Shown: in pieces, positions 3,001-53,234 of the stretch
Layout: every line of letters starts with the position of its first letter
Numbering within the stretch: position 1 is the stretch's first letter
DNA from: Candidatus Kapaibacterium thiocyanatum
GTDB lineage: Bacteria; Bacteroidota; Ignavibacteria; Kapaibacteriales; Kapaibacteriaceae
NCBI GenBank assembly: GCA_001899175.1
Contig: MKVH01000025.1
Coordinates: forward strand, 1-64,000
Direction: 5' to 3'
DNA length: 64,000 bases
Notes under the pieces: model-generated
The model's input: only the letters and a program-made list of their open reading frames with translations
Database searches by the model: none
Told to the model about the DNA's origin: nothing
Made by a program: the position numbers and the translations under genes

Positions 3001-3524
3001 TGGCTCAGCAGCCACAGTATGCGGCGAAGTCGAAATCGAAGTCCGAGAAGAAGGACCCGAAGGCAATATCGTCGGCGAATACTTCGCAGGAAGCGTCAGC
3101 AGGTACCATTGTCATTGGATCTGGTGTAGCGACGTATCTTGTGACAGCGGTTAGTACGGCATTGGTAGTGAGTGGCGGAATTCTAATAATATTCGCTGCG
3201 ATCGTGCCCGGCGACACGAGGATCGACGATGCTGAGGAAGCCGGTGCGGAGTCCGAACCGGACAGTGAAGCGCAACCGTTGAGTCTGCAGGAGCAGGCTG
3301 CCAAGCTTAGGGAAAAACATGGCAAAGCAGAAGTCGAGTTGTCGAATGGATGGCTGCACCTGACTGGTAGTGCTCATGGGAATGTCAGAACACCGCACGT
3401 ACATGATTTGGAATGGAACACTAATCCTCAAACTGGTGTTGCTCATCCCAAAAAGATCGATCACCCACGTCCCGCGACGCAGAAAGACCTAGATGAGGCT
3501 GCAAAAATTATCAACGGAAAGTAG
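3..3524 (+). CDS. RHS-repeat polymorphic toxin, 5' truncated by window edge
   Basis: The frame is open from base 3, so the true start lies upstream; 1173 residues are visible. The body carries YD/RHS-type repeats (for example YDNAGRLV, YDDNGRVAEM, YGYNDRLVKM), a family that forms a hollow shell around a toxic C-terminal tip. An RHS-associated core is visible at residues ~865-939, from YLGKETDYETAP to HDPINFADPSGYAG. After it comes a Gly/Thr-rich linker, a hydrophobic stretch at ~1033-1070 that could act in membrane passage, and a tip of about 100 residues with a His-rich HGNVRTPHVHD motif (~1125-1135). The tip belongs to no family I can name; nuclease activity would be only a guess. Its 3' end is AT-richer than the body, as expected for exchangeable tips. 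The stop is three bases before the first immunity gene. Confidence 0.9.
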   Translation, partial: GKNYGEYLPSNHSAKSWTIDGNPFSGTATRLVTTQMGGMNNVTGVTDISSNTVTTTNKQYGLNTITFQDNTTQKGWDTLAAASALVASPSGFYGICYKSKSIDENGNHTAMYVDGLGRTRYVVVDSGGLDLVTTYTYNTKNQLVTVTNPAGQDIDYDYDRWGNVTSVTHPDFGAVRAKYNNVGQVRFTQKRTQSPGDGHAGDAVTFYQYDDLGRMTAIGEAVFESSSAFNGLDSSTINLTGTGSTYVRPTVNPSLFSGSVAYPTPPSIYPLLPVLSPNNRAGAAGCLFEWGSVRPGYEALFPFNALERTIIKPIDICVFNDAAPYGPVSAANDFEDFTDNPHNGRQAISYDQMPLGGSGSFWRSFPSPTQWNALSKTGTVRNQAGRVAAIAYRDHPYEAYRYRVYSYDERGRVECVIKLTPALGFDAVYYSYNSSDQITSIHVVDALRQYATWYGYDDNGRVAEMTSHVTPAYDGVNPPNNGMGFTTGSIVKPALITRPVGAPRVTYTYDAIGNLTGKVYHDADDLNRELNTTYLYDPRWRLQQQDHSWDLDPVSSSDIYTRDNGGRITQRSSTLLDGDVYDHTYTYDNAGRLVTADVDHNLTPWKSETYDVNEIARRTQTTKTGVVAGYTYAPLPVSATNAPTDIAPSVNGEILTDDQTYNRDGALNYRYLRPQGTAPTVPFSKEWFHYGYNDRLVKMQTQATDQPTGPTCGLMPPFSISFSLSGKMEWQYSYSPSGEREIKRLVLSPTSDSTCGQVFPWTYYLLGTGDEQQVVYHGRQISRGDCDGGPGRRVFFYPVEFRSYGVDGLNIVWERDANGNMVSRFVGTDIQGSERYVVGKNAYQKVRDYLPFGVDVAVANDQRRGYLGKETDYETAPQYNVILNTPLYHERLMDMSARKYSKTQGGFTSVDALWGMAVGTSPYIYSHHDPINFADPSGYAGTPVGGGGTGTGGTGGTPGGKTGGAWPYNPFMLDAFSSDESRSMTSREMIDRLGWNATLVAQQPQYAAKSKSKSEKKDPKAISSANTSQEASAGTIVIGSGVATYLVTAVSTALVVSGGILIIFAAIVPGDTRIDDAEEAGAESEPDSEAQPLSLQEQAAKLREKHGKAEVELSNGWLHLTGSAHGNVRTPHVHDLEWNTNPQTGVAHPKKIDHPRPATQKDLDEAAKIINGK

Positions 3525-3527
3525 TGT

Positions 3528-4247
3528 ATGAACAACATAGGTGCCGTGACGCAACTGCTTGAGGAGTTAGCGCAATTTCTATTGACCAAGATCGAATCTC
3601 AGTCTTCGGATAGTAGTGTTGTCTTGGAAATTAATACTCTTGATAATCCTGGATGGATGATCTCCTCGATACTCATCCCAGGAATCGCGAGGACTGGCAG
3701 CGGAAGTAAATCAGTCGGGGCTTTTGACGAAGAAAGCCAGTACTGGTGGACCTGTATTGAAGAAGAGTATGGTGAAAGTTCAAAGGTATTGATGGCGAGT
3801 GAAGCCATTGTTTCCGCATATGGAGGGCCATCATATCTCCCTATCATCGTTGAAAAAGTATACTCTCGAGTTGTTAACGGGGCACTGGACGAGAATGTCG
3901 TCGTATTAAGTGATGAGCTGATTTCTAACCTGAGTTCCTGGCTGTTAGTACAATGTGATGGCAACTGGGAGCATTCTGAAGGGATTGGAATCGTAATGAC
4001 AAGCACGGGCCAGTGGAGACTCCAGGCAACCAATGTCTCGACGCATCTCCTACGGAAGAAAATAGAAAGGGAAAAGCCACCCAGATTCCCAATACTTGGT
4101 ACAAGGAAGACGTGGCTACGTGATCCGGTGATGATCGATCAGTGCTGGTACCATGATTCGGCAGATATCGGTGGTCTCGCCGATATGCTCGAAACGTTCC
4201 TGAACAATTCGGAGCTCGATCCGGCGGGCTTGCCGAACAGTGTATGA
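3528..4247 (+). CDS. Immunity protein of the RHS toxin (Imm53-like), copy 1
   Basis: This 239-residue cytosolic protein starts three bases after the RHS stop, the usual place for a cognate immunity gene, so it probably neutralises the resident toxin tip. It has no signal peptide or membrane segment. The N-terminal half contains TLDNPGW (~37-43), a WWTC and an AYGGP motif. The C-terminal half contains a QCDGNWEH motif followed by GQWRLQATN and QCWYHDS. TLDNPGW and CDGxWEH are, from memory, both hallmarks of the Imm53 immunity family, where they sit in one short domain, so this may be a duplicated or split Imm53 unit. Two paralogs follow downstream. The gene is AT-richer than the surrounding chromosome, consistent with horizontal acquisition. 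The immunity role is inferred from position and motifs. Confidence 0.8.
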   Translation: MNNIGAVTQLLEELAQFLLTKIESQSSDSSVVLEINTLDNPGWMISSILIPGIARTGSGSKSVGAFDEESQYWWTCIEEEYGESSKVLMASEAIVSAYGGPSYLPIIVEKVYSRVVNGALDENVVVLSDELISNLSSWLLVQCDGNWEHSEGIGIVMTSTGQWRLQATNVSTHLLRKKIEREKPPRFPILGTRKTWLRDPVMIDQCWYHDSADIGGLADMLETFLNNSELDPAGLPNSV

Positions 4248-4262
4248 ACGCCCGGTAGGGTG

Positions 4263-4436
4263 GTGTTCCAATATGTTGATGGAGATTTCCCACTCCAGCG
4301 ACTGGATGAGAGGCGGTTGATCGACGGTATTACATTGTGGACGATCGTGAACCTACCCTTGTCGCAGGTGCCTCGTCCTGGTTCAGCAACGCAGAAAGAT
4401 CTGGACGAAGCCGCGAAAATCATCAACGGAAAATAA
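4263..4436 (+). pseudogene. Relic of a displaced RHS toxin tip, copy 1
   Basis: A 57-codon open stretch with no start codon ends in PRPGSATQKDLDEAAKIINGK (two adjacent parts: PRPGS, then ATQKDLDEAAKIINGK) and a stop. The final 16 residues match the C-terminus of the intact RHS protein (ATQKDLDEAAKIINGK), while the upstream part (VFQYVDGDF...LDERRLIDG) does not. The stop lies exactly three bases before the second immunity gene, reproducing the junction of the intact toxin and its immunity gene. This is best read as the 3' end of a former toxin tip left behind with its immunity gene when a new tip was inserted upstream. Confidence 0.75.
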
Positions 4437-4439
4437 TCC

Positions 4440-5159
4440 ATGAACGACATGAATGCAGTGACACGATTGCTTGAGCAGTTGGCGCAATATCTGATCGACA
4501 AAATAGAAGCTGTGCCAACTGGAGACCTCATTGTACTAACGATCAACTCACTTGATAATCCCGGTTGGGGAGTCTCGTCGGTACTCATGCATGAGACTGT
4601 TGCCGATAGGAAATCTGTCGGAACGATTGATGATAACAGCTTGGATTGGTGGACCTGCTACGAACAAGTGTATGCTGAGAGCCCAAAAAGGTTAATGAAG
4701 ACTGATGCTCTAGTGACGGCATATGGTGGTCCACTATACCTTGCTACTATTGCTGAGAAGGTCTATGCACGAGTGGTGAATGGGGTCTTGAACGAGAATG
4801 TCGCCATCTTGAATGATACTATTATCGATAATCTCTGCGCATGGCTGTCAGTGCAATGTGATGGTGAGTGGGAGCATTCTGAAGCGATTAGAATTGTACT
4901 GACAAGTGCCGGTCAATGGAAGTTTCAGGCGACGAATGTCTCGACACACTTGTTGCAGAAAGAAATGGAGTCGGAAGTACGACCAATGTTTCCAATGCTT
5001 GGTACGGAGAAAGCATGGATGCGTGACCCGGTGATGATCGATCAGTGCTGGTATCATGACTCGACAGATATTGGTGGTCTTGCCGATATGTTCGAAACGT
5101 TCCTGAACAATTCGGAGCTCGATCCGGCTGGTTTGCCGAACAATGTTCCAACGCCCTGA
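4440..5159 (+). CDS. Immunity-type protein (Imm53-like), copy 2
   Basis: This 239-residue paralog of the gene at 3528-4247 has the same layout: an N-terminal half with SLDNPGW, DWWTC and AYGGP, and a C-terminal half with QCDGEWEHSE, GQWKFQATNVSTHL and RDPVMIDQCWYHDSTDIGGL. It starts three bases after a relic of a toxin C-terminus, so it is an orphan immunity gene whose toxin has been lost. Such genes are known in RHS and CDI loci to protect against siblings that still carry the older tip. The last ~45 residues are nearly identical to the other two copies while the N-terminal halves differ much more, which suggests recombination or selection acting on the 3' ends. Base composition is AT-rich for the window. 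Confidence 0.75.
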   Translation: MNDMNAVTRLLEQLAQYLIDKIEAVPTGDLIVLTINSLDNPGWGVSSVLMHETVADRKSVGTIDDNSLDWWTCYEQVYAESPKRLMKTDALVTAYGGPLYLATIAEKVYARVVNGVLNENVAILNDTIIDNLCAWLSVQCDGEWEHSEAIRIVLTSAGQWKFQATNVSTHLLQKEMESEVRPMFPMLGTEKAWMRDPVMIDQCWYHDSTDIGGLADMFETFLNNSELDPAGLPNNVPTP

Positions 5160-5190
5160 TGTTTCGCGCGTATTCGGAGAACGGCTTGAT

Positions 5191-5282
5191 GGTAGCGTTC
5201 CAACATGTTGATGGAACCGTGGTAGCGTTCCAATATGTTGATGGAACCATCAAGGGTAGCGTTCCAATATGTTGATGGAACC
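5191..5282 (+). repeat. Three tandem copies of a 28-bp hairpin repeat
   Basis: Copies lie at 5191-5218, 5221-5248 and 5255-5282. Each begins GGTAGC and contains GTTCCA and TGGAAC, which are reverse complements separated by nine bases, so the unit can fold into a 6-bp stem with a 9-base loop. The first two are 2 bases apart and the next is 6 bases further. In one frame the unit reads VAFQYVDGT, so an origin as a decayed coding fragment is also possible. Further copies are at 5479-5506 and 6634-6661, and a degenerate one begins near 4263. Confidence 0.85.
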
Positions 5283-5434
5283 GTCAAGCATTCGAAGAAT
5301 GGCTTGATAGTGGGATTCTTGCTCGCGTTCGTATCATGATATGAACGATCATTCCCTTTGGTAACGAAGAAGCGAACCGTTCGTTGGCCTGCTACAGCCG
5401 GGCATTTGGACCTCGTGTTCCAATGTGTGGATGA
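5255..5434 (+). repeat. 180-bp direct duplication, copy A
   Basis: This segment starts with a hairpin repeat and ends at GTGTGGATGA. It recurs almost unchanged at 5479-5659, with only a handful of substitutions and a one-base indel visible by eye. The two copies are separated by 44 bases that contain the RHS-core fragment, which shows a recent local duplication. Confidence 0.85.
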
Positions 5435-5446
5435 TGTTCTGAAGTC

Positions 5447-5479
5447 CTCGGCAAGGAGTCGGACTACGAGACGGCGCCG
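5447..5479 (+). pseudogene. 33-bp fragment of RHS core coding sequence
   Basis: These bases match positions 2601-2633 inside the intact RHS core at 31 of 33 positions and would encode LGKESDYETAP. The fragment is flanked directly by the end of repeat copy A and the start of repeat copy B. It shows that the noncoding patchwork derives in part from RHS genes and that breakpoints fall inside the core just upstream of the variable tip. Confidence 0.8.
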
Positions 5480-5659
5480 GTAGCGTTCCAATATGTTGAT
5501 GGAACCGTCAAGCACTCGAGGAATGGCTTGATAGTGGGATTCTTGCTCGCGTTCGTTGTCATGATATGAACGATCATTCCCTTCGGTAACGAAGAAGCGA
5601 ACCGTTCGTTGGCCTGCTACAGCCGGGCATTTGGACCTCGTGTTCCAATGTGTGGATGA
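5479..5659 (+). repeat. 180-bp direct duplication, copy B
   Basis: Second copy of the segment at 5255-5434, again led by a hairpin repeat (5479-5506). Past its end the sequence continues into a region resembling the toxin-tip relic upstream of immunity gene 2. Confidence 0.85.
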
Positions 5660-5754
5660 ACTTTCTGTGCCAGTATGGGATGAGAGGCGTTTAGCGACGG
5701 TACTACACTATGACATGATCATGAACGGTGCCCTTGTGACAGGTGTCTCGTCTC

Positions 5755-5811
5755 GGCTCAGCAGCACAGATAGATCTGGACGAAGCCGCGAAAATCATCA
5801 ACGGAAAGTAG
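5755..5811 (+). pseudogene. Relic of a displaced RHS toxin C-terminus, copy 2
   Basis: Eighteen codons plus a stop read GSAAQIDLDEAAKIINGK, matching the C-terminus of the intact RHS protein. The stop is three bases before the third immunity gene, the same spacing as at the two upstream junctions. The preceding sequence (VFQCVDELSVPVWDERRL, from about 5640) is homologous to the relic at 4263-4436 but lies in another frame, so it has suffered an indel. This is a decayed toxin end, not an expressed gene. Confidence 0.75.
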
Positions 5812-5814
5812 ATT

Positions 5815-6537
5815 ATGAATGACACAAATGCAGTGATACAACCGCTCGAGAAGCTAGCGCAATTTCTAATTGACAATATTGAAACTACGTTGGAGGGCGA
5901 GTCTATCGTTCTGAGAATCAGTACTCTCGACAATCCCGGTTGGGAGGTCTCTTCGATACTTCCGAATGAAGCTGCAAAGAATGATGTCGAGAGAAAATCC
6001 GTCGGAGCAATTGATGAAGAGAGTGAGGACTGGTGGACTTGCTTCGAGCAAAAATATGCTGAGAGTGCAAAGGTGCTAATGAAGACCGATGTCGTTGTGA
6101 CGGCATATGGAGGCCCATTGTACCTTCCTGTTATTGCCGAAAAAGTATACTCACGAGTTATGCGTGGAATCCTGAATGAGAACCCGATCATCCTGAATGA
6201 TGGGCTGATCGATAGAATCAGTACATGGCGGCAAGTTCAATGTGATGGTGAATGGGAACATTTGGATGGAATCAGAATTGCTCTAGCAAGTACCGGCCAG
6301 TGGAAGTTTCAGGCGACGAATGTCTCGACGCATTTGATGCGGAAGGACCTGGAATGGGAGAAACGACCAAGGTTTCCGATACTCGGTACGAAGAAGGTAT
6401 GGATGCGCGACCCGGTCATGATCGATCAATGCTGGTACCATGATTCGACAGAAATCGGAGGATTGGCCAGTATGCTCGAAACGTTCCTGAACAATTCGGA
6501 GCTCGATCCGGCAGGTTTGCCGACGGGTAGGTGCTAA
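5815..6537 (+). CDS. Immunity-type protein (Imm53-like), copy 3
   Basis: This 240-residue paralog of the two upstream immunity genes shows the same two-half layout, with STLDNPGW, DWWTC and AYGGP in the N-terminal half and QCDGEWEH, GQWKFQATNVSTHL and RDPVMIDQCWYHDST in the C-terminal half. It follows a decayed toxin C-terminus by three bases and is probably an orphan immunity gene kept after loss of its toxin. The reading frame is intact and the spacing of motifs is conserved, so it is still under selection or very recently formed. There is no signal peptide or membrane segment. Role is inferred from context. Confidence 0.75.
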   Translation: MNDTNAVIQPLEKLAQFLIDNIETTLEGESIVLRISTLDNPGWEVSSILPNEAAKNDVERKSVGAIDEESEDWWTCFEQKYAESAKVLMKTDVVVTAYGGPLYLPVIAEKVYSRVMRGILNENPIILNDGLIDRISTWRQVQCDGEWEHLDGIRIALASTGQWKFQATNVSTHLMRKDLEWEKRPRFPILGTKKVWMRDPVMIDQCWYHDSTEIGGLASMLETFLNNSELDPAGLPTGRC

Positions 6538-7006: not shown

Positions 7007-8257
7007 ATGCCTACCGTCGATATCCACCGCCGTACGCTTTCCAATGGATTACGAGTCGTCGTATGTCCGGACCATGGTGCGCCGACCGTGACCGTCAACG
7101 TCACCTATCGCGTCGGATCGCACGATGAATGGCCTGCACGGACGGGCCTGGCCCATCTGTTCGAACATCTGATGTTCGACAATACGTCGACGGGACTGGA
7201 GAAGCAGTACGATCTGTATTGCACGAAGGCCGGTGGATCGAACAATGCCTATACGACCTTCGATCACACGACGTACTTCATCAACCTGCCGTCGCATCAG
7301 GTGGAGCTCGGCTTCTGGCTCGAAGCCGAACGGATGCGCGACTTCATGATCACCGACCATGCCCTGACCACACAGAAAAGCGTCGTGATCGAAGAGATCA
7401 AGCAGAACGTGGAGAACCAGCCGTACGGACGATGGAGGACGGCCACGGAAGAAGCCGCCTACACGCCGGACTGTCACTATCACTGGGAGGTCTATGGATC
7501 TTCGGAACATGTGGCCTCCGTTTCCATGGACGATGCGCGGACGTTCTACGAGAAGTACTACCGGCCGTCCAATGCCGCCCTCGTCGTGGCCGGCGACGTC
7601 ACACCAGACGTCGCCTTCGACATGGCCGAGCGCCACTTCGGTCATATCGTATCGCCATCGGCGGCTATCGAGCGCACGTCCTACGACGATGCATGGCGGG
7701 TGTTCGGTGCGCATTCGGTGGTACCCGACGCCGTGCCGATGCCGGCTGTCTTCATTTCCTTCCACATGCCGGGCATCTTCGATACGGCCAGCTATTCGGC
7801 CGAGATCGCGGCGATGGTATTGGGATCGGGGCGGACGTCCCCGCTGTACAAGCATCTTGTCAACGATCTGCGTATCGCATCGTCGGCGATGGCCTTCTTC
7901 GACCGCCGGGCCAACACGTCGCTTCTCACGATCTACGCCCACGCCAATGAGGAATCCGTGACGGCCGACCAGCTCGCCGCAGCCGTCATGGAAGCCATCC
8001 AGGGATATACGTGTACGGAAGAGGACTTCGAGAAGGCCTCGAACCGCATTCGCACGGCTCTCGCCGCTGAGATACAACGCAACGAAGGTGTGGCCGACAG
8101 CGTGGCTTCCTATACGGTGTTCTTCGACGATCCGGGGCTGGTCAATACGGTGCTTGACAACTATGCGGCGCAGACGCGTGAATCCGTCCAGGCGATGATC
8201 GATCGTTGCCGCTCCATCGACGATGGGATACGCGTGGACGTCGTGCCGAATGCCTGA
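7007..8257 (+). CDS. M16-family zinc metallopeptidase
   Basis: This 416-residue protein is a single M16 (pitrilysin/insulinase-type) unit. The inverted zinc motif HLFEH is at residues 50-54, the expected downstream acidic cluster VVIEEIKQNVEN is present, and a second M16 fold follows (YRPSNAALVVAGDV onward). M16 proteins cleave peptides, and bacterial forms often work as pairs of active and inactive subunits; no partner gene is adjacent. No signal peptide is evident, so a cytoplasmic location is likely. The chosen ATG is preceded by a TAnnTTTG box. The open frame extends upstream to 6812, but that part lies in the decayed array and lacks family similarity. It is convergent with the aminotransferase gene, 27 bases away. 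Confidence 0.9.
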   Translation: MPTVDIHRRTLSNGLRVVVCPDHGAPTVTVNVTYRVGSHDEWPARTGLAHLFEHLMFDNTSTGLEKQYDLYCTKAGGSNNAYTTFDHTTYFINLPSHQVELGFWLEAERMRDFMITDHALTTQKSVVIEEIKQNVENQPYGRWRTATEEAAYTPDCHYHWEVYGSSEHVASVSMDDARTFYEKYYRPSNAALVVAGDVTPDVAFDMAERHFGHIVSPSAAIERTSYDDAWRVFGAHSVVPDAVPMPAVFISFHMPGIFDTASYSAEIAAMVLGSGRTSPLYKHLVNDLRIASSAMAFFDRRANTSLLTIYAHANEESVTADQLAAAVMEAIQGYTCTEEDFEKASNRIRTALAAEIQRNEGVADSVASYTVFFDDPGLVNTVLDNYAAQTRESVQAMIDRCRSIDDGIRVDVVPNA

Positions 8258-8284
8258 TCGTCGTTCACCGACCGCAAGGAGTGG

Positions 8285-9451
8285 TCACGTTTCGGATGCG
8301 ATGCCCGCTACCTGACGCAGGCGTTCCGCCGCGCGCTCCAGCGTTGCGTCTTCCTTGGCGATGCAGAATCTCAATGCAGCCGAAGGCTGCCCATCGTTCA
8401 CGGAGATGAAGGGGCTGAGCGGGATCGACGCCACGCCGATGTCCTTCGTCAATCGTACGGCCAGATCCATGTCGCCTTCACGGGAGAAGCCGTCGTATCC
8501 GAGTAGCTGGAAGTACGATCCCGTGCAGGGAAGGATGGACCATGCGCTGCCTTCCAGCAGCGAGCGGAAAAGGTCGCGCTTGTGCTGGAAGAACGTTCCT
8601 ACCTGTGTATAGGTGGTTTCGTCCTGCATGTAGCGTGCGAGCGCCACCTGCGTCGGTGTATGGACACTGAAGGAGAGGAACTGGTGTACCTTCCTGAATT
8701 CGTTCGTCAGCGCCGGTGGTGCCAGACAGCATCCAATTTTCCAACCGGTGGTGTGGAAGGTCTTGCCGAAGGACGTGACGACGAAAGAGCGTTCCCTCAG
8801 GCCGTCGATGGACGCCGCCGAATGGTGGCGTTGCCCGTCGAAGACGATATGGTCATAGACTTCGTCGCTCAGGATCACGATGTCCGTACCGTCGACGACG
8901 TCGGCGAGTGCGCACAGATCGCCGTCGCTCCACGTCGTTCCGGTCGGATTGTGGGGCGAGTTGATGATGATCATCGACGTCGCAGGGGTGATCATGGCGC
9001 GCAGCTCATCCATGTCCGGACGATAGTGCGGCGCCTTCAGCAGGATGGGGAGGACGCGGCCACCGTTGGCGACGACGGCCGGACCATAGGAATCGTAGGC
9101 AGGTTCGAAGATGACGACATCGTCGCCCGGTCTCACGACGGTCGTAACCGCCGTGAACAGTGCGGCGGTAGCACCCGGTGTGATGGTCAGCTCCGTCGCG
9201 GGATCGACGGTGACGTCGTGCATCACCGCATACTTCCGCGCGATGGCCTCGCGGAAGGCAAGGACGCCCTGCATCGGTGCATACTGGTTGTATCCGTCCC
9301 GCAACGCCTGGCCGACGAAGTCGACCAGGACGGGGTCGCATGCATAGTCCGGGAATCCCTGGGCGAGATTGATCGCACCGTGTTCCTGTGCCAGGCCGGT
9401 CATCACCGAGAACACGGTGGTACCCACGGCCGGCAGTTTCGAACGAATCAC
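8285..9451 (-). CDS. Class I/II PLP aminotransferase (methionine / kynurenine aminotransferase-like)
   Basis: This 388-residue fold-type I PLP enzyme has the motifs YNQYAPMQGV, SPHNPTGT, LSDEVYDH and SFGKTFHTTGWKIG; the last contains the Schiff-base lysine. The overall pattern fits the YbdL/KAT group, whose members transaminate methionine, glutamine or kynurenine with 2-oxo acids in the cytosol. Length is typical. It lies 16 bases downstream of the NYN-domain gene on the same strand and is probably co-transcribed. A kynurenine 3-monooxygenase is encoded about 16 kb away, so a role in tryptophan breakdown is possible, but substrate cannot be decided from sequence alone. Confidence 0.85.
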   Translation of the reverse strand: MIRSKLPAVGTTVFSVMTGLAQEHGAINLAQGFPDYACDPVLVDFVGQALRDGYNQYAPMQGVLAFREAIARKYAVMHDVTVDPATELTITPGATAALFTAVTTVVRPGDDVVIFEPAYDSYGPAVVANGGRVLPILLKAPHYRPDMDELRAMITPATSMIIINSPHNPTGTTWSDGDLCALADVVDGTDIVILSDEVYDHIVFDGQRHHSAASIDGLRERSFVVTSFGKTFHTTGWKIGCCLAPPALTNEFRKVHQFLSFSVHTPTQVALARYMQDETTYTQVGTFFQHKRDLFRSLLEGSAWSILPCTGSYFQLLGYDGFSREGDMDLAVRLTKDIGVASIPLSPFISVNDGQPSAALRFCIAKEDATLERAAERLRQVAGIASET

Positions 9452-44837: not shown

Positions 44838-47675
44838 GTGTTGAAACACTTCGGTACATCGGTCGCCATACTTCTTGTGACGTTCATGACGCCGGTTCTC
44901 GTCTGGGCACAAACGGGAATCATCGCCGGCAAAGTTACGGATGGAGAATCAGGCGAACCATTGCGTGGTGCCACCGTACAGGTGGTAGAAAACAAAAAAG
45001 GTGCCTACACGGACACGAAGGGTACCTTCAGGATCAAGAACATTGCGCCCGGTTCCTATACCCTCAAGTTCTCCTATGTCGGCTACAGCATGAAGACCGT
45101 CGAGAAGGTCGCCGTGACCGCTGACAAGACGGCAACCATCAACGTCGTCCTTTCCGTCACCAAGTCGTCGGCCAAGGAAGTCGTCGTCGAGGCCACGCGC
45201 GTCAACGACAACGCCGCAGCCCTGCTCGCCACGCGGAAGAATGCCGCCCAGGTGAGCGACGGGATCGGACGGGAAGAAATCTCCAAGCTCGCGGACAGCG
45301 ACGCCGGCCAATCGCTCAAGCGCGTTTCCGGTGTGACGCTCGTGGACAACAAGTTCGTCTACGTCCGCGGCGTGAGCGACCGTTACAGCAACACGACGTT
45401 GAACGGTGCTTCGCTGGCTTCTACGGAGCCCGACAAGAAGTCGTTCGCCTTCGACATGTTCCCGAGCGAGCTGCTGGAGAACGCCAACGTAGCCAAGTCC
45501 TTCACGCCCGACCTGCCCGGCAACTTCGCCGGTGGCCTGGTCCAGCTCAACACGATCGACTTCCCGAGCGGTACGAGCGTGAAGTTCAGCGCTTCGTCGG
45601 GCTACAACGACAACGTGACGCTCAAGACAGATCGCTTCCTGATGACGGAAGGAGGCAAGACGGACTGGCTCGGTATCGACGACGGCAGCCGGGCCCTGCC
45701 TGCAGGGTTCCCCGCATCGCGTCTCGAGATGAACGAGCTGCTCCGTGACGTGCGTGCCGGCAACCAGGAATCGATCGATCGCCTGAACGGCCTCGGCCGC
45801 TCCTTCCACAACAATCTCTGGTCAACGGGTTCCACTACCGCAGCTCCGAACGGCAGCTTCGGTGTGACGTACAGCGACCTCTTCAGCACCGGTGAAAGTG
45901 ATCAGTTCGGCCTCGTCGCCTCCATGTCCTACGGCAACAGCTACGGCCTGAACAACATCGTCCGCGGCGGCCTGCTGGCCAATCCGCAGGACTATCTCTT
46001 CCGCTTCCAGGGCACGCAGGCGAGCCGCTCCGTAAGCTGGGGCGGTCTTGTGAATATGGCCTACCGTATCGGTACGTCGACGACGATCAGCTTCAAGAAC
46101 GTCTACAACCGCTCGTCGGATTTCGAGAACGTCTATCTCTCCGGCGAGAACTACGCCCAGTCCATCGTGCAGCGACTGTTCAGCTTCCAGTTCGTGGACA
46201 AGACCCTCTATAGCGGTACGGTATCCGGCGAACACAACCTCCCCTTCAATAATGCACTGGTGGACTGGCGCGTCGGCTACTCGCAGTCCGAACGTGACGA
46301 GCCGGATTTCCGCCGTCTGCAGTTCATGCGCAACACGGCCGATTCGGGTCAACCGCTCTTCGCAGCGTTCGACCTCACACCCCAGGGTGCCGGATCGCGC
46401 GCGGGGCGCTTCTTCAGCAATCTCCAGGACAATGCCATCACGGGCGGTCTGAACTTCCAGCTTCCCGTTACCACTGACCTCAAGATCAAGGTCGGTGGTC
46501 TCGTCGAGAACCGCTCGCGCGTCTTCAAGGCACGCAGCATCACCATCGTACAGAGCTTCGACAACGACATGGCCGACAAGATGGTGATTCCGGACAACGA
46601 CGTAGTGCCGGACCTCAGTCCCATCTTCGCCGATTCCAACTATTCGACCAATCGTCTCAGCTATTCCGAGGATTCCAAGCTCAGCGATACCTACGATGCA
46701 CAGGAAAATCTCGTCGCCGGTTATGCGATGGTCGACTTCCCCGTGTCCATCGCCGGTGTCGATGTCCGCTTCATCACGGGTGCTCGCATCGAGAAGAGCA
46801 TCCAGCGACTCAACAGCTTCTCGGTGACGGACAATCCCGTCCATGTCGATCAGGATCTGCTCGACGTCCTGCCTTCGCTCAACGTCGTCGTCAAGCCATC
46901 GGATCTCATCAACGTCCGCCTCTCGGCATCGCAGACGCTGGCACGTCCGTCGTTGCGTGAATTCGCACCGTTCCAGTTCTTCGACTTCCAGCAGCAGGCC
47001 ACGATCGCGGGTAATCCCAACCTGCGCCGTACGCTCATCCAGAACTACGACGTCCGCTTCGAATACTTCACGGCACCGGGTCAGGTCCTTTCGGCCAGCC
47101 TCTTCTACAAGCGCTTCGACAATGCGATCGAGGAAACGCTCTTCCCGCAGCAGAGCGAGGTCGTGCGTTCCTTCGCCAACGCTTCGGGCGCCGCCCACAA
47201 CTACGGTGTGGAACTCGAAATACGTCAGGGGCTCGGCTTCATCGCCAACCCTCTCAACAACTTCATGCTGTCGCTGAACGCAGCGCTCATCCGCTCCGAA
47301 CTCACGGTATTCCAGGCCACGGTGCAGGACACGCGTCCGATGTGGGGACAGTCGCCGTACACGATCAACCTCGCGCTCTACTATGTGAATCCCGATTCGC
47401 GTACATCGGTCACGCTTGGATACAACACCTACGGCAAGCGGATCATCCAGGTGAATCAGGTGGGGACGTTCCAGGGCAATCCTCACGTCTACGAACTGCC
47501 GCGGGATCTCGTCGACTTCTCCATCATCCAGCCCGTCGGCGAAAGCTGGGAAATCAAGCTCGCCGTTCGTGACCTGCTCAACCAGCCACTGAAGTGGGAG
47601 CAGGAAGGTTCACTCGTCCAGTCCAACCTTCGTGGCCGCAGCGTTTCGCTCGGCTTCGGATACAAGATTCAATAA
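44838..47675 (+). CDS. TonB-dependent receptor with carboxypeptidase-regulatory-like N-terminal domain
   Basis: This ~945-residue outer-membrane receptor has a signal peptide (HFGTSVAILLVTFMTPVLVW, cleaved near AQ), a CarboxypepD_reg-like domain (IIAGKVTDGESGEPLRGATV), a plug (ISKLADSDAGQSLKRVSGV, FVYVRGVSDRYSNTTLNG) and a 22-strand barrel ending in SVSLGFGYKIQ. Plug details resemble outer-membrane receptors of the TonB/FecA-CirA group, rather than a SusC with a SusD partner; no susD gene is adjacent. Substrate is unknown. The start is uncertain: GTG at 44838 or TTG at 44841 gives a normal signal peptide. The following T9SS gene begins 34 bases later and may share its transcript. Confidence 0.88.
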   Translation: MLKHFGTSVAILLVTFMTPVLVWAQTGIIAGKVTDGESGEPLRGATVQVVENKKGAYTDTKGTFRIKNIAPGSYTLKFSYVGYSMKTVEKVAVTADKTATINVVLSVTKSSAKEVVVEATRVNDNAAALLATRKNAAQVSDGIGREEISKLADSDAGQSLKRVSGVTLVDNKFVYVRGVSDRYSNTTLNGASLASTEPDKKSFAFDMFPSELLENANVAKSFTPDLPGNFAGGLVQLNTIDFPSGTSVKFSASSGYNDNVTLKTDRFLMTEGGKTDWLGIDDGSRALPAGFPASRLEMNELLRDVRAGNQESIDRLNGLGRSFHNNLWSTGSTTAAPNGSFGVTYSDLFSTGESDQFGLVASMSYGNSYGLNNIVRGGLLANPQDYLFRFQGTQASRSVSWGGLVNMAYRIGTSTTISFKNVYNRSSDFENVYLSGENYAQSIVQRLFSFQFVDKTLYSGTVSGEHNLPFNNALVDWRVGYSQSERDEPDFRRLQFMRNTADSGQPLFAAFDLTPQGAGSRAGRFFSNLQDNAITGGLNFQLPVTTDLKIKVGGLVENRSRVFKARSITIVQSFDNDMADKMVIPDNDVVPDLSPIFADSNYSTNRLSYSEDSKLSDTYDAQENLVAGYAMVDFPVSIAGVDVRFITGARIEKSIQRLNSFSVTDNPVHVDQDLLDVLPSLNVVVKPSDLINVRLSASQTLARPSLREFAPFQFFDFQQQATIAGNPNLRRTLIQNYDVRFEYFTAPGQVLSASLFYKRFDNAIEETLFPQQSEVVRSFANASGAAHNYGVELEIRQGLGFIANPLNNFMLSLNAALIRSELTVFQATVQDTRPMWGQSPYTINLALYYVNPDSRTSVTLGYNTYGKRIIQVNQVGTFQGNPHVYELPRDLVDFSIIQPVGESWEIKLAVRDLLNQPLKWEQEGSLVQSNLRGRSVSLGFGYKIQ

Positions 47676-47709
47676 CCTCTCTAACCTTGTCAACCATTCG
47701 GAGTCGATC

Positions 47710-50700
47710 ATGCAACGACTGATTCTTGCTGCGGTCTTCGTCCTGTTGGGATGGTCCGCTGCATCGGCACAAAGCCCGACGCAGTGCACCCTCATCTCTC
47801 CCAACGGCGGCGAAACGTTCCGACCGGGCACTTCGCAGGACCTGCGCTGGGATACGACGGGTACGTCCCGCGCCCGCTGGCGCTTCCTGTTCGGTACATC
47901 ACCCGCAGGACCGTGGACGCAGCTCGTACGCGCAGACAATGTTCTGGACAGCGGCGCAACCCGCGGTGCTTTCGCCGGCGGCCTTCGTGTTCCTGCCGTG
48001 GCTACCACGTCGGGCTACATTCGCATGGAGCTCATCAGCGACCCTAACGTCTTCGATATTTCCGACAATCCCTTCACGATCATCCAGCCGCAGACGATCG
48101 TTCCCGATTCCATCATCAAGGGTGAGATCACGGGCACGGTTCATCTGCATCGTAACAAGATCTACGGTCTTCAGGGATATGTCTACGTGAACGATGGCGG
48201 CAAGCTCGTCATCGATCCGGGCACGATCATCGTCGGCGACACGCCCGGCAACAACTCCGCACTCATCGTCAACCGCGGCGGCAAGCTCATCGCCGAAGGC
48301 ACGAAGACGTCCCCGATCATCTTCACCAGCCGTGCCGCACCGGGTCAACGTGCACGTGGTGACTGGGGTGGTGTACTCATCTGCGGCAAGGCCCGCACGA
48401 ACCATCCTGCAGGTCAGGCCGCTCTCGAAGGTGGCGTGGCCGATGCCAACCCTGGCAAGGGCTGGTTCGGTGGTACGGACGACGACGATTCCAGCGGTAT
48501 CCTCAAGTATGTCCGCATCGAATTCGCCGGTATCGCAACGCAGCCGAACTCGGAGCTCAACGGCCTGACGCTCGGTGGCGTAGGACGCCGCACGGTGCTC
48601 GACTATATCCAGGTTTCCTTCGCCAACGACGATGCCTTCGAATGGTTCGGCGGCTCCGTCAACGCACGCCACCTCGTGGCCATCGGTACGCTGGACGACG
48701 ACTTCGACGGCGACAACGGCTGGAGCGGCAAGGTCCAGTTCGCCGTCGCACAACGCTACCGTACGGTAGCCGACGTGTCGACGTCGCAGAGCTTCGAGAT
48801 CGACAACGATGCGACGGGCTCGTTCAACAGCCCCAAGACGTCCGTCGTCTTCTCGAACGTCACGTCGATCGGTCCCATCCAGGACACGTCGTGGACGCCC
48901 GGTAACGGCGCGAACCAGTTCAGCTCGCGCTTCGGTGCCGCTGCACAGATCCGTCGTAACGCTCGCGCCAGCATCTTCAACTCGATCTTCCTCGGCTGGC
49001 CGCGCGGTATCGAAATCGCCCAGGTCCCGACGATGGTCGTCGCCTTCAACGATACGCTCAGCCTTCGTCAGAACTCGTGGTTCGGCATCAAGGGCACGTG
49101 GCTCAACCTCGCCGGTGGTACGCCCCCGGTAGGCATGGACGCCAACTGGATCGCCAAGGCCGGATTCAACAACACGATCGAGAAGGGCAATCCTCATGCG
49201 GCCTTCCTCGAGAATCCGTTCGCGACGGACGTCACCTTCTCGCCCAGGCCCCTTCCCGTCGCCACATTCCTCACGACGGCTTCCTTCACGAATACGGCCA
49301 ACGGTGTGCCGATCGACGATCCGTTCTTCGAACGCGTCGCCTATCGCGGTGCATTCTCGCCCACGGAAGCACGCTGGGACGAAGGCTGGACGAACTACGA
49401 TCCCGTCAACACGGAATACCGTGCACAACCGCTCGTACACATCCTCACGCCTGGTGCGGCTGCCGGCGAAACCTACGTCCAGGGTGCCAAGGTCGATATC
49501 ACGTGGGACACGACCGGTGGTGCAGGCAATCACTTCAAGTTCGAATTCGGTACGACGCCCGCAGGTCCGTGGACGGCGATCGCCGGTGCCGAGAACGTCA
49601 CGGATGCCGGTGCAACGCGCGGCAAGCTGACGCAAGGCTTCACGGTTCCGAACGTGCTCACGACGACGGGCTACATCAGGATGTCGCTGGTATCGGACAA
49701 CACGATCTACGACGTCAGCAACGTACCCTTCACGATCATCTCGGGCGTCGTCGATCCCGTCGTGCGCCTCATCGAACCCGGCACGAGCAACAGGACCTTC
49801 CGCGTAGGTCAGTCCGTCGACGTCCGCTGGGACACGACGGGTACGTATCGCAAGCACTTCAAGTTCGAATTCGGCAAGTCGCAGGACGGTCCGTGGGCCG
49901 CTCTGCCCGGTCTCTCCAACGTTCTCGACAGCGCTGCACGCCGCGGTGCCTTCGCCGGCGGTATCGTCTTCCGTCCGGCCGACGTCACGACGACGGGGTA
50001 CATCAGGATGACGATGGTCGAAGACCCGACGAAGTTCGACATCAACGATCAACCCTTCACGGTTACGGCTCCCGAGCCGGTGACGTGCGACTCGACGCTG
50101 ACGGGTGAGATCACCACGCGTGTGAAGCTGCACAACACGAAGGTCTACTGTCTCGACGGCTACGTTTACGTGAACGACGGTGCCGTTCTCGAGATCGAAC
50201 CGGGTACCATCATCCTCGGCGGTGTTCCGGGTACGAACTCGGCACTCATCGTCAACCGCGGTGGCAAGCTCGTCGCCGAGGGCACGGCCAACCTTCCCAT
50301 CATCTTCACGAGCCGCGCCGTTCCCGGTCAGCGTTCGCGTGGTGACTGGGGCGGTGTTCTCCTCTGCGGCAAGGCTCGCACGAATCACCCCGCAGGTCAG
50401 GCCGCCCTCGAAGGTGGCGTGGCCGATGCCAACCCGGGCAAGGGCTGGTTCGGCGGTACGGAAGACGATGACTCCAGCGGCGTTCTCAAGTATGTCCGTA
50501 TCGAATTCGCCGGTATCGCAACGCAGCCGAACTCGGAACTCAACGGTCTGACGCTCGGTGGCGTAGGACGCGGTACGGTGCTCGAATACATCCAGGTATC
50601 GCACGCCAACGACGATGCCTTCGAATGGTTCGGTGGTACGGTCAACGCACGGCACCTCATCGCTCTCGGTACGCTGGACGACGACTTCGACGGCGACAAC

Positions 50701-51690
50701 GGCTGGAGCGGCAAGGTCCAGTTCGCCATCGCACAACGTTATCGTACGATCGCCGACGTTTCGACGTCGCAGACGTTCGAAATGGACAACGATGCGACCG
50801 CATCGACCAACCAACCGCTCACGTCGCCGATCTTCTCGAACGTCACGTCGATCGGTCCCATCCAGGATACGTCGTGGACGCCCGGTAACGGCGCGAACCA
50901 GTTCAGCTCGCGCTTCGGTGCCGCTGCACAGATCCGTCGTAACGCTCGCACGAACATCTTCAACTCGATCTTCCTCGGCTGGCCGCGCGGTATCGAAATC
51001 GCCCAGGTCAACACGATGACGGCCGCCCTGAACGACTCCGTCCAGGTACGCAACAACTCGTGGTATGGTGTCAAGGGCACGTGGCTCAACCTCGCCGGCG
51101 GCACGCCTCCGGCAGGCATCGACGCCAACTGGATCTCGAAGGCTGAATTCGGCAACGTCATCGACAAGTCGTCGCCCGACGTCGCCCAGCTCGAGAACGC
51201 CTTCGCCACCAGCGTCGAATTCAATCCTGCTCCCAGGTCCAGCTCTCCCGTCCTGACGGGTGCCGGCTTCACGGGTAATGCCGACAACGCCTACTTCGAA
51301 CGCGTGAACTATCGCGGTGCTTTCGGCATGCAGCGTTGGGACGATCGCTGGGCCAACTACGATCCGGTGAACACGGAGTACAAGGCCCAGCCAGCGGTCA
51401 GTGTGGAAGAAGAGAATCCGCAAGCCGTGGCCATCACGGGTCGTGCATTCCCGAACCCCGCTTCCGATGCTTCGACGATCCGCTACGAACTCTCCCGCGC
51501 CGACGTCGTCACGATCCGCGTGGTCGACGCTCTCGGTATGCTCGCCTCGACGTTCATCGCCAACGAGCAGCAGGGTGCAGGTACGTACGAGTTCCGCCTC
51601 GTCACGTCCGATCTCGCGAACGGTGTGTACTACGTCACGATCAATGGCCAGCGCGGCACGATCACCATTCCGGTGAACGTCGTCCGCTAA
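47710..51690 (+). CDS. T9SS-sorted surface protein with two near-identical large modules
   Basis: This 1326-residue protein has a signal peptide (MQRLILAAVFVLLGWSAASA). Three Ig-like Kre9/KNH-type domains (PNGGETFRPGTSQDLRWDTT at ~27-120 and two near 577-795) alternate with two modules, residues 138-574 and 799-1228, that share most residues (GDWGGVL, NHPAGQAALEGGVADANPGK, FEWFGG, GTLDDDFDGDNGWSGKVQF). The modules are beta-helix-like and resemble T9SS-associated proteins of Bacteroidota. The last ~85 residues (AFPNPASDASTIRYELS...LANGVYYVTINGQRG) are a Por sorting domain. Many copies of this module type exist in the phylum; the function is unknown, perhaps adhesion. An in-frame upstream ATG at 47632 would precede the signal peptide and is rejected. 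Confidence 0.85.
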   Translation: MQRLILAAVFVLLGWSAASAQSPTQCTLISPNGGETFRPGTSQDLRWDTTGTSRARWRFLFGTSPAGPWTQLVRADNVLDSGATRGAFAGGLRVPAVATTSGYIRMELISDPNVFDISDNPFTIIQPQTIVPDSIIKGEITGTVHLHRNKIYGLQGYVYVNDGGKLVIDPGTIIVGDTPGNNSALIVNRGGKLIAEGTKTSPIIFTSRAAPGQRARGDWGGVLICGKARTNHPAGQAALEGGVADANPGKGWFGGTDDDDSSGILKYVRIEFAGIATQPNSELNGLTLGGVGRRTVLDYIQVSFANDDAFEWFGGSVNARHLVAIGTLDDDFDGDNGWSGKVQFAVAQRYRTVADVSTSQSFEIDNDATGSFNSPKTSVVFSNVTSIGPIQDTSWTPGNGANQFSSRFGAAAQIRRNARASIFNSIFLGWPRGIEIAQVPTMVVAFNDTLSLRQNSWFGIKGTWLNLAGGTPPVGMDANWIAKAGFNNTIEKGNPHAAFLENPFATDVTFSPRPLPVATFLTTASFTNTANGVPIDDPFFERVAYRGAFSPTEARWDEGWTNYDPVNTEYRAQPLVHILTPGAAAGETYVQGAKVDITWDTTGGAGNHFKFEFGTTPAGPWTAIAGAENVTDAGATRGKLTQGFTVPNVLTTTGYIRMSLVSDNTIYDVSNVPFTIISGVVDPVVRLIEPGTSNRTFRVGQSVDVRWDTTGTYRKHFKFEFGKSQDGPWAALPGLSNVLDSAARRGAFAGGIVFRPADVTTTGYIRMTMVEDPTKFDINDQPFTVTAPEPVTCDSTLTGEITTRVKLHNTKVYCLDGYVYVNDGAVLEIEPGTIILGGVPGTNSALIVNRGGKLVAEGTANLPIIFTSRAVPGQRSRGDWGGVLLCGKARTNHPAGQAALEGGVADANPGKGWFGGTEDDDSSGVLKYVRIEFAGIATQPNSELNGLTLGGVGRGTVLEYIQVSHANDDAFEWFGGTVNARHLIALGTLDDDFDGDNGWSGKVQFAIAQRYRTIADVSTSQTFEMDNDATASTNQPLTSPIFSNVTSIGPIQDTSWTPGNGANQFSSRFGAAAQIRRNARTNIFNSIFLGWPRGIEIAQVNTMTAALNDSVQVRNNSWYGVKGTWLNLAGGTPPAGIDANWISKAEFGNVIDKSSPDVAQLENAFATSVEFNPAPRSSSPVLTGAGFTGNADNAYFERVNYRGAFGMQRWDDRWANYDPVNTEYKAQPAVSVEEENPQAVAITGRAFPNPASDASTIRYELSRADVVTIRVVDALGMLASTFIANEQQGAGTYEFRLVTSDLANGVYYVTINGQRGTITIPVNVVR
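48121..49431 (+). repeat. Intragenic duplication, module 1
   Basis: This coding stretch recurs at 50104-51393. The central parts match closely at base level, for example from the GDWGG region to the IRRNAR region, including many silent positions, while the ends have diverged. Confidence 0.8.
50104..51393 (+). repeat. Intragenic duplication, module 2
   Basis: Second copy of the module at 48121-49431, slightly shorter near its 3' end (a gap where module 1 has TNTANGVPIDDPF and module 2 has TGNADNA). Confidence 0.8.
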
Positions 51691-51716
51691 GCTGCCGTCG
51701 GGTTCGAATCAATCGA

Positions 51717-51754
51717 GCGGTGGCGCACCGGAAGGTGCGTCACCGCTTTTGTTT
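51717..51754 (+). terminator. Rho-independent terminator after the 1326-aa gene
   Basis: GCGGTGGCGCACC pairs with GGTGCGTCACCGC (13 bp with one G-T pair) around a GGAA tetraloop, followed by TTTTGTTT. It lies 27 bases after the stop codon. Confidence 0.9.
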
Positions 51755-51806
51755 GAGACCAAGCCGCAAGTATTGTACAGGTCAACAAGGTAATAGGGAA
51801 GGTCAG

Positions 51807-52289
51807 CTACGCGCCTACCCAAGCCGCTTCCAGTTCAAGTCTTCGATAATTCATGGCCTGCTCGGTAGCGCCATAGTTCAGATCAGCCGGTCTTGGGCCG
51901 CCGTGCTCGTTCCAGAAGGAGCGTCGTAGCCGGTTACTCCTCACAACAGCGTTGTGAACCTCCTTTAAGGCGTCTAGGAACTGTGTCCATAATTCATGTT
52001 CGTTGTTGATATCGCCTATTGAACTGGATCTGAATGTGATGCTGTACAGTCTGCCCGATCTCTTCCCAATAGTAACTGTAAAGCTGGAGTCGATCTCAAC
52101 ATTGAGATGATCTTCGTCTGAAGAGGAATAGAGGAACTCGATTGATGCCGTTCTATGGATTGGTGACGAAAGCGCCCTCACCGCCCTCGGAATATCTCCC
52201 GAGACCGGTGTATACGTTAGCGGGGAATCTGGGTACCGGACATCCTTCAGGAACTCTGAAGGATCCAAGTCTATCCACTGGCTCGTCAT
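51807..52289 (-). CDS. Uncharacterised protein, partner of the two-TM protein upstream
   Basis: This 160-residue cytosolic protein (MTSQWIDLDPSEFLKDV...) has no recognised motif, signal peptide or membrane helix. It is predicted to be mixed alpha/beta with a VTIGKRSGRLYSITF strand pair and a charged, Arg-rich C-terminal helix region. Its ATG overlaps the stop of the upstream gene by four bases, so the two proteins are made together and probably act together. The pair is AT-richer than its surroundings and interrupts a conserved region, suggesting recent transfer. Confidence 0.65.
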   Translation of the reverse strand: MTSQWIDLDPSEFLKDVRYPDSPLTYTPVSGDIPRAVRALSSPIHRTASIEFLYSSSDEDHLNVEIDSSFTVTIGKRSGRLYSITFRSSSIGDINNEHELWTQFLDALKEVHNAVVRSNRLRRSFWNEHGGPRPADLNYGATEQAMNYRRLELEAAWVGA

Positions 52290-53095
52290 TGGGAACCTCC
52301 ACTCAATATGGCTTCCAAAGGCTCTGCCGCAAACTTACCGACCTTGTTTTTTGTCTGTCTACTGAACTTTGCCGGTTCGGTGGAATCGACGACCAAGACA
52401 CCCCAGTTTTCGTCATTTGCTTTCACAACTACAGCGTAGATGCTTCGAGACATTGGCCTGTTTTTTTTCAGGCGACTTTTAACAAACTCCAATGTGACAA
52501 AAGTATCCTGCGCATACTTGGATAGCTCATGATCTGTGCTGTGTGTTGAGATAGGATCCAGATTGAGGCTACTTGCCGTGCCTCCCTTTAACCAGGCTTC
52601 CCCAGCAATCCCATGACACCGCGTCTGAGAAGACGGAGGATCGAAGACCGTAAACGGAGATATATGAGAAACGTGCTGACCATATCGCATTAATGGAACC
52701 AGTTTGCCCACGGTAGCCTGGGCCTTGCGATTGACATGGATTCTCCAAGGCCACCAGTGTTCTCGGTACACAAACAATGTTACCCGGTTAATTGTATGAT
52801 CATTCTTCTCACCGCCGAATATGTCTTCGTGATGTTTCTGTAGTAACTTTTCGACGGCATAGATGGTTCGGGTTCTGACGCTATGCGACGTGACAACATT
52901 CTGGATCAGTATGATCGATCCTGCTGCGATCAATAGTGATACTCTCCATGTTGGACCTATCATTGTGCAGATTGTTATCGCCTTGCCTTCATACCATGAC
53001 TCTGGTGTCGCACCAAGAATCACACCGATGATTGTCGCAATAATCGAAGCGTAGTACAGTAGCCGGTACATCTTTGCACGACGTCGAATACTCAC
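52286..53095 (-). CDS. Two-TM membrane protein with a GAF-like cytosolic domain
   Basis: This 269-residue protein has two N-terminal helices (YYASIIATIIGVILGA and VSLLIAAGSIILIQNVV) and a ~190-residue cytosolic part with the strand and loop order of a GAF sensor: INRVTLFVYREHWW, a HGIAGEAWLKGG loop, then SIYAVVVKANDENWGVLVVDS and a final amphipathic helix VGKFAAEPLEAIL. GAF domains bind small ligands or nucleotides, and GAF proteins with membrane anchors occur in sensing and defence contexts. The GAF assignment is from pattern only. It is first in a two-gene unit with the orphan protein downstream. Base composition is AT-rich for the window. Confidence 0.65.
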   Translation of the reverse strand: MSIRRRAKMYRLLYYASIIATIIGVILGATPESWYEGKAITICTMIGPTWRVSLLIAAGSIILIQNVVTSHSVRTRTIYAVEKLLQKHHEDIFGGEKNDHTINRVTLFVYREHWWPWRIHVNRKAQATVGKLVPLMRYGQHVSHISPFTVFDPPSSQTRCHGIAGEAWLKGGTASSLNLDPISTHSTDHELSKYAQDTFVTLEFVKSRLKKNRPMSRSIYAVVVKANDENWGVLVVDSTEPAKFSRQTKNKVGKFAAEPLEAILSGGSQ

Positions 53096-53234
53096 AGGGT
53101 GGGCTCTACGAAATAGGGAAACAGCTGGTCTCTTTTGAGAAAAGATACGCGTAGACTTGACTCTTATATCTTACTGACTTGACGATTGCCGAACTCTGTT
53201 TCTACTTCCAATGAAAATTACTCTATCCCCCCTC

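Follow-up and report, generated by a model that had tools for sequence, protein, structure and literature searches.

Two overlapping genes of Candidatus Kapaibacterium thiocyanatum, one for a GAF-domain protein with two hydrophobic segments (GAF-2TM) and one for a smaller partner, constitute by sequence comparison a conserved linked module that is found across distant bacteria and is carried by phages and plasmids. It is probably, though by no means certainly, a mobile module that is expressed during lysogeny and brings about exclusion or abortive infection of other phages in the manner of RexAB. We propose this reading because the pair lies near an HTH or repressor gene in most of its phage or prophage-like loci and joins a membrane protein to a soluble one, as RexAB does, while the protein families are not shared. 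In the window, i.e., the complete stretch of 64,000 nucleotides that was analysed (contig MKVH01000025.1, positions 1 to 64,000), the relevant features are:

52286–53095, minus strand: GAF-2TM gene, 269 aa, GTG start (ORF listing)
51807–52289, minus strand: partner gene, 160 aa, ATG start (ORF listing)
52286–52289, minus strand: 4-nt overlap of the GAF-2TM and partner genes (ORF coordinates)
51691–53234, no strand assigned: inserted AT-rich segment with conserved neighbours on either side (gene order in relatives and GC content)
51715–51748, plus strand: terminator-like stem of 15 pairs, outside the module and behind the repeat-protein gene (pattern search)

An initial annotation, made from the letters of the window alone, had described two genes overlapping by 4 nt, and the ORF listing bears this out with minus-strand reading frames at the same outer coordinates. 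For the GAF-2TM gene an in-frame ATG at codon 9 is available as an alternative start. Both ORFs are more than chance products, since homologues elsewhere keep their order and their short overlaps. Upstream of the pair and on the same strand lies a gene for an acyltransferase-like membrane protein (named by eye) with its stop at 53235, and from the other side a gene for a long repeat protein (47632–51690, plus strand) converges on the pair, past the terminator-like stem. This stem had been termed a strong terminator. It is indeed present on the plus strand, but its strength did not hold up: one such pattern was found in the region versus 1.4 expected on average from shuffled sequences, and the stem is thus weak evidence for a terminator. 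The atypical base composition was confirmed, with a GC content of 0.488 for the pair and 0.478 for positions 52001–53000 versus about 0.60 in the surrounding DNA. A tRNA gene was not found in the window.

A second AT-rich stretch (GC about 0.48) occupies positions 108–6537 of the window. It starts with an ORF for a YD/Rhs-like repeat protein of 1138 aa (108–3524, named by eye), which is followed by three similar ORFs (3528–4247, 4440–5159 and 5815–6537; 239, 239 and 240 aa). Copies of the end of the 1138-aa protein precede the second and the third of these, and the arrangement resembles that of polymorphic toxin loci in which immunity genes are repeated in tandem.

Homologues of the acyltransferase-like protein are present in all five relatives searched (51–59% identity), and the loci of four of them were opened. 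In G001 the ends of the acyltransferase and repeat-protein genes overlap, in G002 a gap of 92 bp separates these genes and in G003, which belongs to the same genus, the gap is about 0.8 kb with one other ORF of 216 aa; none of these three carries the pair. They are the informative relatives, as the contig of G021 ends too early. In the window, the gap between the same neighbours measures 1,544 bp and holds the pair. Judging from gene order, the pair was inserted between conserved neighbours, because the informative relatives keep the flanking genes without it. Repeats that could mark the ends of the insertion were short and imperfect at the window pair. The ORF in the gap of G003 (L027:3213–3863) differs from the pair, and the gap may therefore be a recurrent insertion site.

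The window GAF protein as query retrieved one phage, Pseudomonas phage LPPA36, from 50,697 phage records and two Vibrio plasmids from 72,556 plasmid records. In LPPA36, the GAF gene shares 4 nt with the gene that follows, whose product is homologous to the second window protein. Profile searches added locus L008 and then L009–L013, the genomes G749 and G810 (loci L017 and L018) and, from IMG/VR contigs, L033–L037. In total, 16 loci were read (window, L006–L013, L017, L018 and L033–L037), two of which, L036 and L037, are nearly identical; one Vibrio plasmid (p114-1) is included, while the second plasmid with a GAF match was left out. At every one of the 16 loci the GAF gene is followed immediately by the partner gene in the same orientation, such that the co-occurrence on which the initial annotation had made its idea of a pair depend holds throughout. 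The genes overlap in 14 loci, by 4 nt in six and by 1 nt in eight, and are separated in p114-1 by 1 nt and in L010 by 4 nt (start chosen by alignment).

The GC content of the pair is below that of its flanks in 15/16 loci (two-sided sign test 0.0005), albeit by just 0.01 in L012; p114-1 is the locus where it is not lower. Together with the empty site in relatives and the carriage by phages and plasmids, this AT-richness agrees with the earlier suggestion of a mobile module. The pairwise distances of the two proteins are correlated (r 0.88 for 16 loci and 0.73 for 13; 1 in 5001 for both), as is also expected from linked inheritance alone. For L010 and L011, dN is well below dS in both genes (0.173 vs 1.207; 0.080 vs 0.606), and for the partners of p114-1 and L012 dN is 0.40 at a dS of 1.38; in the other comparisons synonymous sites were saturated or, for L036/L037, changes were too few. 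L010 and L011 stem from metagenome-assembled contigs titled as different phyla, and by eye they share flanking ORFs on either side. This suggests mis-binning or a single lineage, and the two loci may not be independent.

The module is very rare. In the Aliivibrio phylum sample, three of 398 genomes had a match to the GAF profile, the seed included, and in the sample of the Aliivibrio family (177 genomes) the seed itself was the one match. The partner profile matched two of 396 genomes, both of which carry the GAF gene; G810 is absent from the partner matches listed, and whether it belonged to this sample is not stated. Around the window organism, a search with the single GAF sequence gave nothing beyond the window genome itself in the family sample (22 others) or the phylum sample (394 others), and the GAF profile gave nothing in the other 197 genomes of a second, overlapping phylum sample (1/198 with the seed). 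Single-sequence scans of viral and genome contigs yielded no further relative, the partner-profile scan of viral contigs yielded none, and the phage pair had no DNA match in E. coli genomes. Two weak partner matches within the window's phylum, each covering 61 residues of a much longer ORF (560–609 residues) at an E of about 0.0025, were taken as chance.

The window GAF-2TM protein has hydrophobic segments at residues 12–30 and 52–70 (hydropathy), N-terminal to the GAF fold. Two such segments with basic flanks are found in every one of the 16 GAF proteins, where the two top-scoring hydrophobic windows within the N-terminal 95 residues reach 1.06–2.98, though at a stricter cut of 1.4 both segments were retained in only 6 of the first 11 proteins. 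A cytoplasmic location is predicted for the GAF domain and for both termini, given the basic residues before the first and after the second segment and a loop that in most of the proteins is close to neutral or negatively charged. The Pfam GAF family matches the window protein below its curated cut-off (E=0.097), and 7 of 9 aligned members are matched, the best at 6e-5. The predicted structure strongly resembles solved GAF domains (best 3ci6_A; Z 14.8, rmsd 3.6 over 138 residues) and gave 23 Foldseek matches at E <= 0.001; mean pLDDT for the whole protein is 68.5, with the membrane part less certain. From the model, the first protein carries the GAF alpha/beta fold, and together with the hydrophobic segments and the Pfam matches of its relatives this substantiates the membrane-anchored GAF-like protein proposed initially. 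Fourteen positions are invariant in the 16 members, R104, T106, F108, P134, R137, Y194, W231, G232, V235, D237 and S238 among them. One of the nearest solved folds is the GAF-type free methionine sulfoxide reductase fRMsr (4mmn_A; Z 14.6, rmsd 2.7 over 135 residues), whose catalytic cysteines, however, are not conserved in GAF-2TM proteins. Reductase chemistry of this type appears unlikely, since in no alignment column do as many as 8 of the 16 proteins have cysteine. The best PHROGs match of nine GAF proteins was to an unnamed family (0.0081), and 15 of them gave a single PADLOC match at 0.012.

For the partner, a soluble protein with a five-strand sheet and C-terminal helices is predicted at modest confidence (mean pLDDT 65.8); residues W5, P34, R38, Y54 and G75 are invariant. 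Nine members compared with Pfam matched seven families, each in one member and with E 0.02 at best, 15 members compared with PHROGs reached 0.02, and the window partner had a chance-level match in NCBIfam (E 0.1). Neither window protein matched a PADLOC family, the window partner being the one partner scanned. Structural comparisons gave no significant match by Foldseek against PDB (best E 0.12) or BFVD (best 0.07) or by VIA-align (best Z 3.3, rmsd 3.9 over 79 residues), and profile searches of solved structures returned nothing useful. Judged by the databases scanned, the partner belongs to no known family, in keeping with its former designation as an orphan; the view that the pair matches no known system likewise stands after scans of PADLOC (both window proteins and 15 GAF members), NCBIfam (both window proteins), and Pfam and PHROGs (partners). 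By eye, we take a motif of the partner to resemble DUF2283. DUF2283 proteins make up three of the 50 weak BFVD matches listed (ranks 26, 30 and 37), and the assignment stays a lead because Pfam showed no such match in nine members.

The small overlapping genes, their strict pairing in 16/16 loci and their carriage by phages and a plasmid would also suit a toxin–antitoxin system, in which a 2TM-GAF membrane toxin is restrained by the partner and stabilises mobile elements, with or without an effect on phages. We consider this unlikely, as the size of the upstream protein and its domain of ligand-binding type would be unusual for a plain toxin, and as no such family was matched by the window proteins (Pfam and NCBIfam) or the aligned members (Pfam).

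The initial annotation had named a constant housekeeping context as an outcome that would speak against its proposal. Such a context was not encountered: 8 of the 16 loci (LPPA36, L008, L017 and L033–L037) are phage or prophage-like. The flanks of L008 encode a UmuC-type polymerase and a minor tail protein of phage type, and L033 has a gene for a GPD tail protein; L034–L037 were counted as phage by their IMG/VR origin, and L017 was called prophage-like by eye from its gene order, the four of its flank proteins that were scanned having no match in Pfam. In seven of these eight loci, an HTH gene is located upstream of the pair and in the same direction. It encodes a full S24 repressor (CI/S24) in L034, where the gene ends 2 nt before the GAF gene, and in L035 at a distance of 0.4 kb. 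Shorter HTH genes are situated 0.5 kb (L033), 1.1 kb (L037), 1.3 kb (L008), 1.4 kb (L036) and 2.2 kb (L017) upstream, with other small genes in between in several loci; those of L008 and L017, likewise with intervening genes, score just under the Pfam cut-off. Near the pair of LPPA36 no HTH or repressor gene was seen, and a resolvase-family recombinase is encoded there. No repressor gene lies beside the pair in the flanks examined of the window, the Vibrio plasmid and six bacterial contigs (8/16 loci). The plasmid pair follows a recombinase gene at 0.8 kb.

Small secreted-looking proteins are encoded ahead of the pair in L008 (9369–9701), L036 (9023–9346) and L037 (2621–2944); the first matches DUF2511 and the other two are alike by eye. 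Between HTH gene and pair, L036 also encodes a staphylococcal-nuclease-like protein with an Excalibur domain (8068–8742).

The proximity to repressor genes in 7/8 phage loci could have a different meaning. GAF domains are common sensors of small molecules and serve mostly in signalling, and the GAF protein might sense a host metabolite or the state of the membrane and tune the repressor via the partner, i.e., contribute to lysogeny control and have no anti-phage role. This is improbable in our view: plasmid and chromosomal pairs occur with no repressor gene seen beside them, and the repressors that do lie nearby differ in type (S24 in two loci, short HTH proteins elsewhere).

Clustering near known defence genes, a check proposed in the initial annotation, was not seen in the 10 flank proteins, drawn from five loci, that were compared with PADLOC. 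Four of them gave matches at E <= 0.01, none a strong match to an established system: PDC-S59 for an ATPase in L018 (9.7e-8), PDC-S48 for an ORF in L008 that overlaps the HTH ORF in another frame (3.3e-8), JetA for a flank ORF in L012 (1.4e-4) and PDC-M09A for a flank ORF in L017 (0.0083). The context seen instead is the repressor side of temperate phages. The L018 gene (7700–8905), encoding an ATPase of the nSTAND/AAA type, begins 2 nt past the partner gene, and its product is a possible third module member in that genome.

Some chromosomal copies stand among ordinary genes, in L009 between those for cyclophilin and RuvX and in L013 between those for a TctC receptor and a mandelate-racemase relative. 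These settings, and the predominant use of GAF domains in signalling, would fit a cargo that serves host fitness or signalling and has no part in phage conflict, such as a sensor of stress or redox state acting as a phage moron. There is little to recommend this explanation when half of the loci read are phage or prophage-like, when neither protein has a kinase, cyclase or HTH output domain (Pfam, window proteins and nine aligned members of each) and when the gene is as rare as the profile counts indicate (3/398 and 1/198 genomes, seeds counted), unlike a generally useful trait.

According to the accessible portions of two reports, lambda rexAB, CarolAnn 43/44 and RexABpp are encoded together with the phage repressor or downstream of it, and in such repressor-linked two-gene systems a soluble protein is proposed to trigger a membrane effector; Sbash gp30/gp31, CarolAnn gp44/gp43 and P. 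putida RexABpp are given as relatives of RexAB (PMC6426596, PMC12894663). As far as these portions describe the systems, our pair resembles RexAB in being made up of adjacent genes of temperate phages for one membrane and one soluble protein. Its position may be comparable in the seven phage or prophage-like loci with an upstream HTH or repressor gene, in several of which other genes intervene, but not in LPPA36, the window or other bacterial loci. RexB and Sbash gp31 are described there with four transmembrane helices, whereas the membrane protein of the pair has two hydrophobic segments and, in addition, a GAF domain, and its gene comes first. RexA and Sbash gp30 are assigned a DUF4747 motif in the same portions, while nine partner proteins gave no such Pfam match, as a diverged RexA-like protein might also do, and the fold matches are weak. 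With two rather than four segments and a partner that matched no known family, the pair, from its sequences, does not appear to be RexAB by family membership. The Pseudomonas temperate phage Fc02, too, has exclusion genes in its regulatory region, but in the part of the report available these overlap on opposite strands and Olg1 matches the DEDDh exonuclease family (PMC9936078). In the literature searched, where preprints and subscription journals are thinly covered, no description of the pair and no paper on LPPA36 were found.

Among CBASS and Pycsar systems, the membrane effectors are small proteins whose cytoplasmic domain is of a potentially nucleotide-binding type. The GAF-2TM protein is similar in being small and membrane-borne with a predicted cytoplasmic domain of a kind that can bind nucleotides. 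It differs in its mate: the partner matches no cyclase or nucleotidyltransferase (Pfam, nine members), so the pair itself has no recognisable signal-making enzyme, and a Pfam scan of 20 flank proteins, taken from some of the loci, detected none either.

If the RexAB-like reading is correct, the first protein would be anchored in the inner membrane and expose its GAF domain to the cytoplasm, and the second would be its cytoplasmic partner, made in step through overlapping translation. In prophages the pair would be switched on during lysogeny, because it follows the repressor gene and has the same orientation. Infection could be signalled by a small molecule that enters the GAF pocket or by a phage product that meets the partner. 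The signal would alter the complex of the two proteins, the membrane helices would act on the membrane by leak or arrest, and the infection would abort. In this manner, the lysogen, or a host that has acquired the pair, would be protected against other phages as by RexAB. The loci without a repressor gene (8/16, and LPPA36 in addition), the distant, sub-threshold HTH genes of L008 and L017, the missing strong link to established defence genes among the 10 flank proteins and the rarity of the pair temper this reading.

A bolder version of the RexAB-like reading, which we regard as possible but rather doubtful, is that the pair stands for a form of immunity carried by phages that has not been described before. 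Here, a ligand bound in the GAF pocket would gate the membrane protein with its two helices, and the new partner fold would serve as sensor or gatekeeper of infection. It would be a small-molecule-gated analogue of RexAB that needs no dedicated cyclase and reads a cellular metabolite or nucleotide altered by infection.

Should the RexAB-like reading prove right, the two-gene systems with which prophages protect their hosts would gain a new protein architecture, and a compact one, since the pair takes up about 1.3 kb and has moved between distant bacteria. Its GAF pocket then raises the question of whether the protein reads a small molecule that is changed by infection.
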